Shown here in pieces: positions 8,896 through 20,628 of a stretch of DNA of 64,000 bases. Made by a program: the position numbers and the translations under genes. Numbering within the stretch: position 1 is the first letter of the stretch; every line of letters starts with the position of its first letter. Location of the stretch: NCBI RefSeq assembly GCF_000231405.2, contig NZ_CP007032.1:372001-436000 (forward strand), given 5' to 3'. Below the pieces are notes generated by a model. It was not told where the DNA came from. It made no database searches and was given only the letters and a program-made list of their open reading frames with translations. Source of the stretch: Desulfitobacterium metallireducens DSM 15288. GTDB taxonomy: Bacteria; Bacillota; Desulfitobacteriia; Desulfitobacteriales; Desulfitobacteriaceae.

Positions 8896-10032
8896 ATGAC
8901 GCTCACTCAGATTGCTTTACAAAACTTGCGACGACGTTTTGGGAAAACCATTTTTCTCATCTTAACGTTCCTATTGGTTGTTGGAACGATAACCACGTTA
9001 AACATCGTTTCTTCAAATATGAAGCAGGATTTACAACAAAGTCTAAGTCAATATGGAGCCAATATTATGATCACGCCAAAGTCGGAACATTTGTCCTTAA
9101 GCTATGGAGGACTGGCCGTTTCTGGAGTGGATTATGAAGTCAAAAATCTGGAAGCCGGGATGATCGAGAAGTTAGAACAAGTTGTTGCTCCTGGTGATGT
9201 TCTTGCTCCTAAAATTATTGGCAGTGCTAAGGGAAATGAGAAAACGTTTCTTATTGTAGGAGTTGACTTTGCTAAGGAGCTTCAGATGAAACCTTGGTGG
9301 AAAATCGAAGGTCAAGTTCCGAAGGCTCAAGAAGTTGTTGTGGGGTTCTCACTTGCAACCGAAAATAACTTCAAAATTGGTGATTCCTTAAACATAGGAA
9401 ATCTGAAATTAAAAGTTTCCGGGGTGATGCAAGAGACTGGCGGATCTGAAGATAATGCAGTATTCACAGATTTTCAGTTAGCTAGGGATTTGACTGGAAT
9501 CCAGAGCGAATGGTCCATGATTGAGTTAAATGTTGCAGAACTGCAAAAGATCCTTCCCTTAATTACGGAGAATCTACCTGAGGCTAATATAGCGTCAGTC
9601 TCGCAGCTTGTTCAGAGCGCACAAGAAAATGTGGACCGCTTTGCGGACTTCTCAGTGTCTATCTCCATTGCCTTAGTCGTTATCGGTGTATTTGTTATTG
9701 TTTCTGCGTTAGCAGGAAATGTCAATGACAGAGTACGGGAATTAGGGATACTTCGGGCGATTGGGTTTCGACAGTCCCATGTTTTGAGCTTACTAGGCCG
9801 GGAGGCTTTAATTCTAAGTTTTGTCGGTAGCCTGCTCGGTTATCTTTTAGGTATTTTATTACCTTTTGCCTTGGGACCTCTTCTTTTTCAGAAAACGATA
9901 CCGTTAGAAGCGCATGTGCTACTGGGAGCCCTTTGTATTTTTGGGGCCATGATCAATGGCCTGATTGCTATGATTTATCCAGCCTGGAGAGTAACCAAGC
10001 TTGATCCTCAAGAGGCCTTACGTTTTATGTAA
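8896..10032 (+). CDS. FtsX/MacB-type ABC permease (second)
   Basis: A 378-residue paralogue of the preceding permease with the same layout: one N-terminal helix, an outer domain sharing IVGVDFAKELQMKPWWKIEG-like sequence, and three C-terminal helices with VNDRVRELGILRAIGFRQ. It lies nine bases downstream with AGGAGG, so it is co-translated. Together with the ATPase and the DUF2318 protein it completes a four-gene transporter operon, ended by the hairpin at 10059. Confidence 0.85.
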   Translation: MTLTQIALQNLRRRFGKTIFLILTFLLVVGTITTLNIVSSNMKQDLQQSLSQYGANIMITPKSEHLSLSYGGLAVSGVDYEVKNLEAGMIEKLEQVVAPGDVLAPKIIGSAKGNEKTFLIVGVDFAKELQMKPWWKIEGQVPKAQEVVVGFSLATENNFKIGDSLNIGNLKLKVSGVMQETGGSEDNAVFTDFQLARDLTGIQSEWSMIELNVAELQKILPLITENLPEANIASVSQLVQSAQENVDRFADFSVSISIALVVIGVFVIVSALAGNVNDRVRELGILRAIGFRQSHVLSLLGREALILSFVGSLLGYLLGILLPFALGPLLFQKTIPLEAHVLLGALCIFGAMINGLIAMIYPAWRVTKLDPQEALRFM

Positions 10033-13832: not shown

Positions 13833-14279
13833 TTAATTAATTTCTTCAGTTTTATTAAATGAAGAAATTAATATATATCCGAAAATAGTACCACACAAAG
13901 AAATCATTGATTCATCCGTCATCATCATTTCTATGAATGGATTATAAGTCATAAAGTATTTAATTTTCCCAACTGGTGTATATGCTATCAAAATAAGACT
14001 TAAATTTAATAAAAGTGTTGGAGTACCTATTGCCAAAAGTTTGATCCAATCTAATGACCAATTTCCAGTTTTTTTTAGTCCGTAAAATAGCCTTGGTAAT
14101 GCTAAAGCTATACCAAACAAAATAGAAAAAAGAGATGTGAATATATAATAATACATGGGATTATAAATCTTACTAGCTTGGAACCTTAATGTAACTTCAT
14201 ATCTAATTCCTAAATATAACAATATTAAGATCAAAACTATAAATATAAAGTATGAAAAAAATTGCTTCCATTTACTCAT
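13833..14279 (-). CDS. Four-helix membrane protein, unknown
   Basis: A 148-residue AT-rich membrane protein with four predicted helices (about 8-25, 42-62, 78-100 and 125-142) and short charged loops. A GGAGG site precedes the ATG. I recognise no family. It stands isolated in the eroded accessory stretch after tRNA-Thr. Confidence 0.6.
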   Translation of the reverse strand: MSKWKQFFSYFIFIVLILILLYLGIRYEVTLRFQASKIYNPMYYYIFTSLFSILFGIALALPRLFYGLKKTGNWSLDWIKLLAIGTPTLLLNLSLILIAYTPVGKIKYFMTYNPFIEMMMTDESMISLCGTIFGYILISSFNKTEEIN

Positions 14280-15290: not shown

Positions 15291-15443
15291 TCATTTATTG
15301 AGCAGCGAGTCTAACTTCTGTATTATCTCTTTATCTATCTCTTTTTTCTTCTTAATATACTTGAGTACAGAAACCATAAAAAAGAGAACAAAAATAAAGG
15401 CTAGTAATACAAAGACCTGAATAAATAATATATTTGTTTTCAA
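15291..15443 (-). CDS. Single-helix membrane microprotein
   Basis: A 50-residue protein on the minus strand: TTG start eight bases after GGAGG, one long hydrophobic helix (about residues 5-28), then a strongly basic/acidic tail (KYIKKKKEIDKEI) ending LDSLLNK. The length and arrangement suit a membrane-anchored small regulator. The family is unknown. Confidence 0.5.
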   Translation of the reverse strand: MKTNILFIQVFVLLAFIFVLFFMVSVLKYIKKKKEIDKEIIQKLDSLLNK

Positions 15444-15553
15444 TTCACTGCCCTCCTTGAAGATCTTTTAATAACTTATTCTATAACTTTTTTAATATAC
15501 CTTCTAAAAGAAAATCCTATTAAAGGGTTCTTTTTTAGAAGGTTTTTTTAGAA

Positions 15554-16429
15554 TTACGAGAGTGTTGAATAATATGTGTTGTTACCAACGAACAAATTTG
15601 TTGAATAAGTTGATCCACCGAGCCCGAGAATACTATATTCCCAACTTAAGTGAGCTCTTGCAGGAGATCCAGAGTAAATTCCTTCGGTGGGTCGGTCAAC
15701 CGCTAACGTACTGATAGTATATGTCCCACCGACCGCCCAACAACGAGGGTTCCATACTTTAGATATAGAATCAGCGCCTCCCCAAACTATTACAAAATCC
15801 GCTGTGAATCCGCCACCAGTAGCATTACCATCTTCTTGAATCCAAATATCGTAATAATAACTTGCCGTATCTGTGTTAATTATCGATTGTGTTTTTAATG
15901 ATTGTGTAGAAAATTTGCCGCTTGTTTGATTCTTAGTTTGTTTTTCTGCAACTTGAGCAAATAGATCATCGACATCATTTTCATTCCCAATTGCTTCAAC
16001 CAACTGGGATCTATTTTCAGGAACTATAGCGATTTTTTTGTTTACAGTAAGAGTCCTTTCAAGATATGAACCATCAGGAAATACATATTTTTTATGGGGC
16101 GTTTGCTCAGAAATACTTAATTCTTTTGCTACCGCTTTTATTTTCTCTGGGTTTGAGGAATCTGGTAGTTCGCCTCTATTGATTTTATCCACCAGTTGGG
16201 GATTGCCATCTAAGAGTCCTTTAGCTTCTAAACTATTCAATAATTGCTTCTTTTGGTCTTGGGTTAAGACGATATTTTTAGTGGTTTTATCCTCTAGGGT
16301 AGAAGAAGCAGATGTGGGTGTTTGCTGGAAAAGAGATGTAGAGCTGATTTTAGAAGTAGCCCCTAACGCAGGGAGAACAGAAGTCATAAGCATCGCAGCT
16401 GTTAAACCTATTACAAGAATTTTCTTCAT
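15554..16429 (-). CDS. Secreted protein, unknown function
   Basis: A 291-residue exported protein: signal peptide 1-24 (KK, hydrophobic core, ALGA cleavage), then a low-complexity Ser/Thr linker, a helical propeptide-like section (about 50-150) and a C-terminal beta-rich, aromatic, Gly-rich part (about 185-291: SYYYDIWIQEDG, VIVWGGAD). The ribosome site is AGGAGAGG. It lies downstream of the HTH-TPR regulator and a tiny exported peptide on the same strand, so it may be an output or co-regulated product. No enzyme motif is recognised. Confidence 0.7.
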   Translation of the reverse strand: MKKILVIGLTAAMLMTSVLPALGATSKISSTSLFQQTPTSASSTLEDKTTKNIVLTQDQKKQLLNSLEAKGLLDGNPQLVDKINRGELPDSSNPEKIKAVAKELSISEQTPHKKYVFPDGSYLERTLTVNKKIAIVPENRSQLVEAIGNENDVDDLFAQVAEKQTKNQTSGKFSTQSLKTQSIINTDTASYYYDIWIQEDGNATGGGFTADFVIVWGGADSISKVWNPRCWAVGGTYTISTLAVDRPTEGIYSGSPARAHLSWEYSILGLGGSTYSTNLFVGNNTYYSTLS

Positions 16430-16474: not shown

Positions 16475-16504
16475 TCATGAGGTATTTATGGGGCGATTTC
16501 TCAT
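16475..16504 (-). CDS. Nine-codon ORF with strong ribosome site
   Basis: AAAGGAGGTG precedes ATG by six bases, and the frame ends after MRNRPINTS with TGA. It lies 46 bases before the secreted-protein gene. It could be a leader peptide for that gene or a directly made short peptide; the ribosome site is the only support. Confidence 0.3.
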   Translation of the reverse strand: MRNRPINTS

Positions 16505-16555
16505 TACAACACCTCCTTTCAATGCATATAAAAAAACTTAAAAGGAAATATAATT

Positions 16556-16678
16556 TTACCCACAGTCAATCCCATCCATTAAGGGGGCTGGTGCAGAATT
16601 GTTAATACCCGCCGGTATAGCAGGCCCCGAAAGGAATAGTGAAAGAGCCAAGAAACTTACGATAAACAATCTAGACAT
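16556..16678 (-). CDS. Exported small peptide, candidate signalling propeptide
   Basis: A 40-residue ORF: MSRLF start, hydrophobic signal (residues 4-18), cleavage region SGPAIPAG, then a short tail INNSAPAPLMDGIDCG. A very strong AAAGGAGGAGG site lies seven bases before ATG. It is the first gene downstream of an HTH-TPR regulator on the same strand, separated by a terminator, which is the layout of Phr/NprX/PapR-type pheromone precursors in RRNPP systems. Function is inferred from layout; the mature peptide would come from the last 7-16 residues. Confidence 0.55.
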   Translation of the reverse strand: MSRLFIVSFLALSLFLSGPAIPAGINNSAPAPLMDGIDCG

Positions 16679-16776
16679 ATAAAACCTCCTCCTTTTAACT
16701 AATCATATATTTAACAAGAGCTTGCAAAGGAAGAGGTTTCTTAGCATATTTTGTCTTATTTACTGTAGAAGTTAAA

Positions 16777-16804
16777 AAGTGCAGAGACCACTGGCCCTGC
16801 ACTT
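16777..16804 (-). terminator. Terminator after HTH-TPR regulator
   Basis: AAGTGCAG / CTGCACTT stem with TTTTT on the minus-strand 3' side, between the regulator and the small exported peptide. The peptide may therefore have its own promoter or depend on read-through. Confidence 0.75.
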
Positions 16805-16808
16805 AAAT

Positions 16809-18095
16809 CTATCTTATTTTACTTTTCATATATTTAATCTCATTGTCATAAAATTCCGCAAGGTAAGGTTCTTTAATAATCTGATAATACTTCTTTAGAA
16901 GTGAGCAGCAGGTTATTTGCTCATATGATGGAGGTAATTTACTTAGAATATCGTAGCATCGGGTTAATATTAGAAAACTTTTATTGAGCTCCTTAGTTTT
17001 TAAGTGGCGTTTAGCGATAATACAAAAGCTGCTTGCTAAAGCCAGTGAATCATTGTTCTCCGATAGTTCGTTATGGATACTGGCTAATAAGTTGTCTGCT
17101 TGACTTATATTATCCTCTAATAGATATACATTAACGAGTTCAGCTAAAGCAAATTGTTTTGTTCTTCTATTTTTAGTCTCTAAATTGATCCTCAAAGATT
17201 TCCCTAGCCAATATTTTGATCGTTTTGTTTTACCTAAAAGAGAAAAATAAAGTCCAATGTTACAATATAGAACGTCTTTATCTCGTGGTTTTATTTCTGA
17301 CTTTGCAGTCCAATAACCTCTAAGTACACATTGCCTCGCCTTATGTAGATCATTTTTATCAAGTGCCACTTGTGCAAGGCTGGAGAAGGCGTTTATTTTT
17401 ACGTGATTTGGACCGTATTCTATCGCTTTTTCGTACATTTCGCTTGCCCGTTTATATTGATGAGTTCGTCTGAATAGAGTACCCATATTAAGATATACGA
17501 TAGCAACCTGTTTTCCTGAATCCCAAAGAAATAGGCTGGATCGGAATGATTTCATAGCTTCTTTGTAATTTCCTTTAGCAACTAAGGCTCCGCCAATACT
17601 CCCCATAACTTTTGCTTTAAAGCGTTTTTCAACAGACAGACTAGGCTGTAACTGCTTTGCCTGTTCGAAGAGTTTAAGGGCATCTTCAAATTGGTTCTCT
17701 AGGGCTAATTGCCATCCTTCATACCATTCCACATACCTCTTCGCAAGGAGAACTGAGCTACTTATTGTGTATAGTAGGTCCGTATAATAGCGAATCTCTC
17801 TCTTATTATCTACGTCCAGAGCATCCAAGAGGTTATTTAACCAAAGCAGTCCTTGTTTCTGAGCCTCCTGGCTTTCCGTTCTTTTAAGTCCGTGCGGAAT
17901 TAGGAAAGTTTTAAAGTCATTGGGCTGGATATTTAAGTTTTCTGAGAGCAATCTTATTATTTCTTCATCAATATTGGTTCTGTGCCCATTAACTATAAGT
18001 GAAAGATAGCTGCTACTTATATTACAACTTTTGGCTAAGCTGCTTATTGTTAATGAATTATCTATAAGCTTTTGTTTTAACGGAGTAATTCTCAC
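16809..18095 (-). CDS. HTH-TPR (RRNPP-like) transcription regulator
   Basis: A 428-residue cytoplasmic regulator. An N-terminal XRE-type helix-turn-helix occupies about residues 5-60 (LTISSLAKSCNISSSYLSL). The rest is a chain of TPR-like helices (for example AKGNYKEAMKSFRSSLFLW and YKRASEMYEKAIEYGPNH). This is the domain order of PlcR, NprR and related peptide receptors. GTG 18095 is the best start: AGGAGG lies nine bases upstream, whereas ATG 18122 would overlap that site. The exported 40-residue peptide gene just downstream is the candidate ligand. Confidence 0.75.
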   Translation of the reverse strand: MRITPLKQKLIDNSLTISSLAKSCNISSSYLSLIVNGHRTNIDEEIIRLLSENLNIQPNDFKTFLIPHGLKRTESQEAQKQGLLWLNNLLDALDVDNKREIRYYTDLLYTISSSVLLAKRYVEWYEGWQLALENQFEDALKLFEQAKQLQPSLSVEKRFKAKVMGSIGGALVAKGNYKEAMKSFRSSLFLWDSGKQVAIVYLNMGTLFRRTHQYKRASEMYEKAIEYGPNHVKINAFSSLAQVALDKNDLHKARQCVLRGYWTAKSEIKPRDKDVLYCNIGLYFSLLGKTKRSKYWLGKSLRINLETKNRRTKQFALAELVNVYLLEDNISQADNLLASIHNELSENNDSLALASSFCIIAKRHLKTKELNKSFLILTRCYDILSKLPPSYEQITCCSLLKKYYQIIKEPYLAEFYDNEIKYMKSKIR

Positions 18096-18191: not shown

Positions 18192-18371
18192 TAATGAGCT
18201 ACTAGAGGCTATCGGGGCGGCGGATCTGGATGTAGATCAAAAAGCCAAGGTTGAGCTTGAACTTCGCAACGATATCCATATTCTGACCAGCAACGAACGG
18301 CTCGAGATTATTGCGCAGGACTTCGTGGAACATTACTCCGAACTCTGGACAACAGGAAAAGCCATGTTTTC
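18192..18371 (+). pseudogene. Fragment of type I restriction HsdR
   Basis: Open frame without start or end encoding EAIGAADLDVDQKAKVELEL, then a stretch with RNDIHILTSNERLEIIA and HYSELWTTGKAMF. This matches the helicase-domain region of HsdR, where the sequence normally continues into CIDK and the next motif; here it breaks off at SLSFVSPK. It is higher in GC than its flanks. It is the remnant of a lost restriction-modification locus. Confidence 0.6.
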
Positions 18372-18583
18372 CCTCTCTTTTGTGTCCCCAAAATGTCCCC
18401 GAAAATTACTCTATAAACCTAAAACTCAATACTCAAAACCCGCTTAAAATAAGGAAATTATCAACATCGCCGAAGCTTATATTAAATCATTTTCCTCACA
18501 CATAGATTGATTTAGTCCGACCTAATTTCGAAGAAATATATAATGATGATTGACAAGTACCCGTCCCTTTCCGAAAGTCCACT

Positions 18584-19369: not shown

Positions 19370-19495
19370 TTGGCTGGATATAAGGATGCTATCCGCACCC
19401 GATTAAAAGGTCTTGGTTTTTCACCAAAAGGACGAGTTCAGAATAGTATACATAAGGTTCGTCATTATATGAAAGGAGATTACAAATGGGATTGA
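19370..19495 (+). pseudogene. Short C-terminal fragment before beta-helix gene
   Basis: An open frame ends with LKGLGFSPKGRVQNSIHKVR and HYMKGDYKWD, overlapping the ATG of the next gene by four codons. A TTG at 19370 has no ribosome site. It may be the tail of a truncated gene; the family is not recognised. Confidence 0.3.
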
Positions 19496-20628
19496 ACGTT
19501 ATCAATAGAGAAAGTTCATCAACTGTTATTGAAGATGTTTTAGGTCCAATTCAAGCTGCAACAATCACGGTTACTAATACCAATGATAGCGGCCCAGGTT
19601 CACTTCGTGAAGCTATTGCAACAGCTGCGGCAGGTTCCGCCATTGTCTTTAGTAATGCAATCCTACCAGCTACTATTACTTTAACCAGTGGCCCAATTAC
19701 GATTAATAAAACCTTAAACATCAACGGTCCTGGTTCGAATCAGTTAATAATCAGTGGTTCTAATAACCGTATTTTTGTTATTAGCGGTGCAACAACTGTA
19801 GTAACAATCACGGGTATAACGTTCGAAAATGGTTTTAATTCAGGTTCAGGCGGAGCCATCTTGAATCAAGGTGCAACATTAAATGTGATACGCTGTACGT
19901 TCTCCAACAACAGCTCAGATTCATTTGGGGGGGCTATAGCGAATATTGCATCAGGTAATGTCAATATTTCAAATAGTACGTTCTCCCAAAACAATTCAGG
20001 AAGTTATGGCGGGGCTATTGCAAATGGGGCTGTAGCAGGTGAAACGGGTACAGTCACGATTACAAGAACTACGTTCATAAATAACCACGGAAGTTTTAGC
20101 GGGGCTATAGGGAATGCTTTTGGTACCGTCAATCTTTCAAATAGTATGCTCGAATTAAATAGTGCTGATAATAACGGCGGAGCTTTTGCAAATGATGGTT
20201 TAGCTAACATTACGAATACGTTGTTTTCCAATAACAGTACTGGCAATAATGGCGGGGCCTTTGCAAATGATGGCACAGCTAACATTTCGAATACTACGTT
20301 CTCTAACAACAGTGCTGGTAATAATGGTGGAGCTATAGCAAATATTGATTCTGGTACAATTACTATTGATAGAAGTACGTTCTCTAACAACGATGCTACT
20401 AATAATGGCGGGGCAATAGCGAATATTGATTCTGGTACAGTTACGATTTCAAGAAGTACGTTCTCTAACAACAGTGCTGGTAATAGTGGGGGTGCAATAG
20501 CGAATATTGATGCTGGTACAATCACGATTTCAAGAAGTACGTTCACTGGTAACACCGCTCCGAATGGTGAAACTACTGCGAATCTCGATGGTGGTACAAT
20601 CATTATTACAAGCAGTACCATTGCCTAA
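19486..20628 (+). CDS. Right-handed beta-helix repeat protein
   Basis: A 380-residue, very Asn/Ser/Thr/Gly-rich protein. Residues 27-90 follow the CSLREA-type opening ITVTNTNDSGPGSLREAI. From about 110 on, rungs of roughly 25 residues repeat GGAIANIDSGT-(I/V)TISRSTFSNN with few changes, predicting a parallel beta-helix. The DNA repeats are nearly identical at 20200-20560, so copy number may vary. There is no signal peptide or anchor (start MGLNVINRESSS), which is odd for a family usually found on surfaces; a spore-coat location is possible. A ribosome site AAAGGAG is present. Confidence 0.75.
   Translation: MGLNVINRESSSTVIEDVLGPIQAATITVTNTNDSGPGSLREAIATAAAGSAIVFSNAILPATITLTSGPITINKTLNINGPGSNQLIISGSNNRIFVISGATTVVTITGITFENGFNSGSGGAILNQGATLNVIRCTFSNNSSDSFGGAIANIASGNVNISNSTFSQNNSGSYGGAIANGAVAGETGTVTITRTTFINNHGSFSGAIGNAFGTVNLSNSMLELNSADNNGGAFANDGLANITNTLFSNNSTGNNGGAFANDGTANISNTTFSNNSAGNNGGAIANIDSGTITIDRSTFSNNDATNNGGAIANIDSGTVTISRSTFSNNSAGNSGGAIANIDAGTITISRSTFTGNTAPNGETTANLDGGTIIITSSTIA

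Follow-up and report, generated by a model that had tools for sequence, protein, structure and literature searches.

Gene organisation of the locus

The locus lies in a 64,000-nucleotide stretch of DNA (the window) of a 3.18 Mb, single-contig genome, and all of its features are on the minus strand (Table 1). An earlier reading made from the letters alone (the sequence-only reading) had described a 428-residue regulator, a terminator and a 40-codon ORF in series; this arrangement is real, as ORF coordinates, Pfam and hairpin energy agree, and the ORF coordinates likewise bear out the 9-codon ORF and the gene for a secreted 291-residue protein. The very strong ribosome site ascribed to the 40-codon ORF was also found (AAAAGGAGGAGG), together with a hydrophobic leader. 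Regulator and pro-peptide are separated by 130 nt. Upstream of the regulator, an open stretch at 18201-18375 (ELLEAIGAADLDVDQKAKVELELRNDIHILTSNERLEIIAQDFVEHYSELWTTGKAMFS) resembles by eye a fragment of a type I restriction HsdR protein, and 19486-20628 encodes a 380-aa protein with Chlamydia-PMP-like beta-helix repeats and no obvious signal sequence.

Table 1. Features of the locus, in window coordinates.
Feature	Position	Strand	Remarks
HTH-TPR regulator, candidate intracellular peptide receptor	16809..18095	-	428 aa, GTG start; Pfam
Intrinsic terminator between regulator and peptide gene	16777..16804	-	dG -17.1 kcal/mol, z -4.3, 0/200 shuffles as good
Operator-like site TAAGACAAAATATGCTA	16742..16758	-	51 nt upstream of -10; gap-free alignment, at equal spacing, with TTCGACAAAATACGACA of relatives
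Putative -10 hexamer TATGAT of peptide gene	16702..16707	-	picked by eye
Candidate pro-peptide MSRLFIVSFLALSLFLSGPAIPAGINNSAPAPLMDGIDCG	16556..16678	-	40 aa; ribosome site AAAAGGAGGAGG; profile E 8.8e-11 in own genome
Predicted pheromone region PLMDGIDCG	16559..16585	-	family core P-x-[IM]-D-[PG]-I; ends approximate
9-codon ORF MRNRPINTS	16475..16504	-	strong Shine-Dalgarno site in front
Secreted protein, likely output	15554..16429	-	291 aa; without a Pfam match above cutoff
Terminator-like hairpin closing the peptide/secreted-protein unit	15499..15543	-	dG -17.8, z -3.9
Single-TM ORF	15291..15443	-	50 aa, TTG start; after secreted gene; positional counterpart in L037, L038
Membrane protein	13833..14279	-	148 aa; 30% identical homologue downstream of secreted gene in L035; association uncertain

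The ribosome site of the 9-codon ORF lies ~75 nt before the secreted gene. A homologue of that gene (L037) has a similarly strong Shine-Dalgarno site ~60 nt upstream, without a start codon. Leader or mRNA-stabilising ribosome sites occur in Bacillus, and the 9-codon ORF is probably a site of this kind rather than a second signal. The compared loci of relatives carry no equivalent of it, so that we rejected it as a second peptide signal, and a role for it in the module in which the sequence-only reading had placed it is unsupported.

The regulator resembles nine-TPR peptide receptors

The regulator matches the Pfam families HTH_3 (E 1.7e-6) and TPR_12 (E 5.8e-17), the HTH occupying residues 6-60. 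Its AF2 model (pLDDT 89) aligned with NprR (5dbk) over 340 of 355 residues (Z 24.3), residues 74-425 of the model falling onto 64-418 of NprR, and Rap and AimR were also among the fold matches; as is usual for TPR folds, unrelated TPR proteins gave high fold scores too. The fold match to NprR, Rap and AimR supports, without proving, the assignment as a peptide receptor. In profile comparison NprR (4gpk) was recovered at E 7.8e-6 and the SinR HTH at E 6e-10, with many other TPR proteins scoring better. Invariant polar residues lie mostly on the A-helices of the TPRs (e.g., N203, R210, N279, Y283 and R311).

With 428 aa the regulator falls within the size range of RRNPP receptors (~250-500 aa, PMC10075063), and the TPR_12 match and the NprR/Rap/AimR fold agree with the peptide-binding type of TPRs that such systems are expected to carry (PMC10075063). 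It shows the HTH plus nine-TPR architecture of the NprR subfamily and not the five-TPR receptor of the PlcR subfamily, since the model aligns along the full nine-TPR length of NprR and Rap. By its architecture we count it among the clan B receptors with nine TPRs (PMC12700828; the assignment is ours), nearest to NprR rather than PlcR.

The regulator was sought in 61 relatives, in 82 genomes from the class and 398 from the phylum, and in collections of genomes and viruses. Besides the window, eight relatives were found, seven full-length or nearly so and one truncated: the own-genome paralogue (31% identical), single copies in Acididesulfobacillus (G003) and in a Desulfosporosinus-like genome (G014), four copies in Peptococcaceae bacterium CEB3 (G011), and the truncated copy in G010. 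All belong to the same bacterial family, which, judged by its named members, takes in Desulfosporosinus, Acididesulfobacillus and CEB3. No further receptor appeared at E 1e-25 among the 398 genomes across the phylum; the scan of genome contigs yielded nothing new beyond the same species and unrelated TPR proteins, and the viral contigs held no relative.

The paralogue is part of a second pair (regulator L034 8477-9787, small ORF ~9862-9969; C1:572473-573965), whose peptide ends in PLIDPIQAAVLH. A TPR-GGDEF gene flanks this pair on one side and a gene for an HD-domain (HD-GYP-like) protein on the other, so that a link from peptide signalling to cyclic-di-GMP is possible at this second locus. 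Two receptors have radical SAM proteins resembling RiPP and P-methyl enzymes nearby (L033 9769-12099 and L026 7106-8710). An AgrB-type system was considered and rejected as a component: AgrB (L035 8-538, PF04647 E 3.6e-19) stands beside the truncated G010 receptor and not at the other loci inspected.

The secreted protein as a putative output

The peptide gene and the gene for the secreted protein are 126 nt apart, with no terminator in the interval. As both lie between two terminator hairpins, they probably constitute a single pheromone-controlled operon, and the gene order makes the secreted protein the likely output of the system. A secreted protein also comes directly after the peptide in G014 (172 aa), in G010 and at the CEB3 locus L025 (147 aa). 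These proteins are unlike in sequence where compared, those of the window and G010 being non-homologous, and at other loci the peptide is followed by unlike genes (HD-GYP, membrane protein, remnants). At L025 (5867-9278) the peptide gene and the secreted protein are accompanied by ABC transporter genes, the ATPase resembling lantibiotic-protection and bacteriocin exporters.

Alternatively, the receptor-peptide pair may be real while the secreted protein is a mere neighbour with its own promoter. A TATAAT lies ahead of the secreted gene at ~16470, the interval between the two genes is 126 nt long, and the homologues of the protein (L036-L038, 31-38% identical; found in G030, G032 and G008, at least two of them being followed by a small TM ORF) occur without any regulator. 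We nevertheless regard this as somewhat unlikely, as the interval is free of terminators, hairpins bracket the two genes, and in other species the peptide is followed, at the corresponding position, by unrelated secreted proteins. Plasmids contained no relatives of the secreted protein.

In the predicted structure of the secreted protein, the beta domain superposes on Lmo2686/Zea of Listeria (4k15; Z 10.4, rmsd 2.1 over 99 residues; next match 5.3), a secreted, oligomeric RNA-binding protein (PMC6907008). Both proteins are secreted; nevertheless, identity is 13% over the aligned residues and the N-terminal part of the window protein lacks a counterpart in Zea. With a weak underlying model (pLDDT 70; the other four models 48-60), we take this likeness as a lead only.

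A shared site upstream of the peptide genes

When the peptide promoters were aligned gap-free on their -10 boxes, which were picked by eye, one or two CGAC half-sites were recognised, the first spanning -49 to -46 and the second -39 to -36, which spaces them by a single helical turn (one base off in L002). The window has AGACAAAATA at the position of the first half-site, which is the best site of its region, has the shared spacing and gave a shuffle p of ~0.009. This operator-like site (GACAAAATA) is the weakest copy in the family, and the agreement is no more than suggestive of a real counterpart of the sites in the relatives.

Because the sites lie just above the -35 region, their position suggests that the receptor acts as an activator. 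The pair could also be real with the receptor repressing the peptide promoter and the peptide derepressing it, as in control of the Rgg3 or PrgX type; sequence by itself does not reveal promoter logic. The sites stand clear of the core promoter, 36-51 nt before the -10, and their half-sites are one helical turn apart, as expected of an activator; this makes repression improbable, and activation is the reading that we prefer.

A wider regulon is unsupported, since pattern scans of the own genome and of CEB3 gave no convincing further operator. Matches to the best operator pattern were no more numerous than those to a reversed control in CEB3 and Acididesulfobacillus; the two best CEB3 matches, apart from the sites at the pro-peptide promoters, both fall within coding sequence, and no second close copy of the window site was found in the own genome.

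The candidate pro-peptide is conserved together with the receptor

The 40-codon ORF has a hydrophobic core (2.71, Kyte-Doolittle) behind a basic start. Its 40 aa, like the 32-53 aa of its relatives, lie within the 10-100 aa of RRNPP pro-peptides, and its distance from the regulator lies within the -60 to 400 bp reported for such pairs (both PMC10075063). In dinucleotide shuffles of the 400 nt behind the window regulator, an ORF of 22-60 codons that was preceded by a Shine-Dalgarno site and encoded a hydrophobic core turned up in 0.55% of cases (0.1-1% over the regulator loci), and one that also ended in [ILMV]D[PG]I in 0 of 2000 per locus. As a natural control, such a follower was found behind 8 of 130 ORFs of at least 150 aa, and 5 of those 8 are regulators of this receptor family. 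The same search overlooked the paralogue of the own genome, whose small ORF has the ribosome site AGGCGGTGA and a TTG start.

The absence of the small ORF beside orthologous regulators had been named beforehand as evidence that would speak against a signalling module; in fact 8 of the 9 regulator loci, the window included, have beside the regulator a small ORF for a predicted secreted product whose C-terminal part carries P-x-[IM]-D-[PG]-I, and peptide and receptor are thus conserved together. In most relatives it sits just downstream of the regulator on the same strand; in G014 it is divergent and upstream. The P, D and I of the core are invariant in seven aligned relatives and in one found later, while leaders and lengths vary. 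The C-terminal ends are PLIDPIQAAVLH (own paralogue), PAIDPIKLIHFFG, PAMDPIKLIHFFA, PQIDPIKLMPYM (G010), PNIDPIEA, PNIDPIEGG, PNIDPIQA (G014) and PLMDGIDCG (window). The window peptide strays from the core in having DGI in place of DPI. About five independent lineages, a small number, stand behind this conservation.

When a profile of the seven peptides other than that of G014 was run against the 82 genomes of the class, the matches at E<1e-9 were exactly these seven, each beside a regulator, and no free-standing copy away from a regulator was found. The G014 locus was held out in effect, as it was found after the peptide motif and the promoter spacing had been defined. A weak profile match (E 0.02) led to the ORF MKKVLLCILSCSCLILTLQFAPNLNTHKSGYSQTTLTQNTIYRPNIDPIQA, divergent from the regulator and ending in ...YRPNIDPIQA, and the locus fits both motif and spacing: TTCGACAAAATAGG precedes the -10 by exactly 51 nt. 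Over both strands of the 64-kb window, nothing reached the score of this site. In the receptor tree the DPIKL peptides go with one clade (support 99/98) and the NIDPI[EQ] peptides with another (100/100), L002 being a long branch of unsure placement; as judged from these sequences, the peptide variants track the regulator tree. The peptides of L003 and L004 differ by 5 synonymous and 8 non-synonymous codon changes, a comparison that proved uninformative.

A different explanation for the small ORF is that it encodes a secreted effector or leader (a bacteriocin-like peptide or a small membrane protein), the HTH-TPR protein sensing something else. The ORF is short and hydrophobic, and in CEB3 (L025) secreted, partly bacteriocin-like cargo and ABC genes adjoin it. 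However, it is the C-terminal P-x-[IM]-D-[PG]-I that stays constant and not the leader, the variants follow the receptor tree, no copies away from the receptor were found in the 82 genomes, and the fold agrees with known peptide receptors, all of which leave an effector or leader with little plausibility. That the locus is a decaying relic is very unlikely: decay is seen among the relatives (the CEB3 locus L008/L027, with a premature stop in the regulator, the peptide lost and the promoter site intact; the truncated receptor of L035; fragments L043 and L044) and the window operator is degraded, but the window genes are all open with strong ribosome sites and intact terminators, and the paralogous pair of this genome is likewise intact. 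The L008/L027 copy has behind it the remnant of a bacteriocin-like protein rich in Gly and Ala.

A proposed receptor-pheromone system

We propose, with a probability of roughly 0.8, that the locus encodes a receptor-pheromone pair of the RRNPP (RRNPPA) type. The peptide-signalling interpretation of the sequence-only reading thus largely holds, given the conserved P..D.I core, the receptor fold and the lack of stray peptide copies. The computational support covers the genes and their architecture, the conservation of peptide and site, the linkage of peptide and receptor variants, and the fold; of five published characteristics of RRNPP systems (PMC10075063), four were found; for the fifth, the Sec signal, the ORF shows a hydrophobic core after a basic start. 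The steps by which the pair would work are inferred, as is the choice of activation over repression. The 40-aa pro-peptide would leave the cell via Sec and be cut down to a short peptide from its C-terminal end, around PLMDGIDCG, which would be re-imported by a general oligopeptide permease and bind within the concavity of the NprR-like TPR domain. In this state the receptor would bind the CGAC-type site just upstream of the -35 region of the peptide gene and activate transcription, which would both amplify the signal and bring about expression of the 291-aa secreted protein encoded in the same unit.

The sequence-only reading had likened the module to NprR/NprX and PlcR/PapR; the first likeness stands on size and fold, whereas the second does not, PlcR being shorter. 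NprR-NprX of the Bacillus cereus group shares the HTH and about nine TPRs, a length of ~420-430 aa and a peptide gene directly downstream, but identity is ~13%, the peptide core is another one and the hosts belong to another class of Bacillota. PlcR-PapR likewise pairs an HTH regulator with a small secreted pro-peptide that is encoded behind it and acts back on the promoter of its own gene; nevertheless, PlcR is a five-TPR receptor (PMC12700828) and the window receptor is of the nine-TPR type. Qsr/QssR of Clostridium are clostridial RRNPP regulators with adjacent small peptides (PMC7376267, PMC10075063), from which the present pair is set apart by description, its host being an anaerobe of another class and its peptide code P-x-[IM]-D-[PG]-I. 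AimR-AimP and the Paenibacillaceae subfamily 08 also have nine-TPR receptors, and a DPG motif is frequent in their peptides (PMC12700828), bearing a loose likeness to the D-[PG]-I of the present family; in contrast, no viral relative of the window receptor was found, and its TPRs match Pfam well and are not degenerate.

The main texts of three large surveys do not mention this bacterial family, although the pair may be listed in their supplementary tables, and in the open-access literature we found no description of RRNPP-type signalling in sulfate- or metal-reducing Desulfitobacteriaceae. The pair very probably represents an undescribed subfamily of a known kind, confined in the searches made here to the Desulfitobacteriaceae-like family of the host.

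Implications

Most known cases of RRNPP-type peptide quorum sensing come from Bacillus, Streptococcus, Enterococcus and a small number of Clostridium species. For the present family, named peptides, receptors and DNA sites are now at hand for direct testing. It is attractive, if rather far-fetched, to speculate that a system with its own peptide code and a direct-repeat operator drives an operon releasing a Zea-like extracellular RNA-binding protein, with a cargo exchangeable among relatives. If this were the case, cell density would control extracellular RNA, and one control unit would drive unrelated secreted proteins in relatives. Two systems in one genome and up to four in another also provide a small natural series for following how receptor-peptide specificity splits. 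Finally, the secreted cargo after the peptide changes by species; in this light the pair would be a control unit that can be exchanged between secreted proteins.
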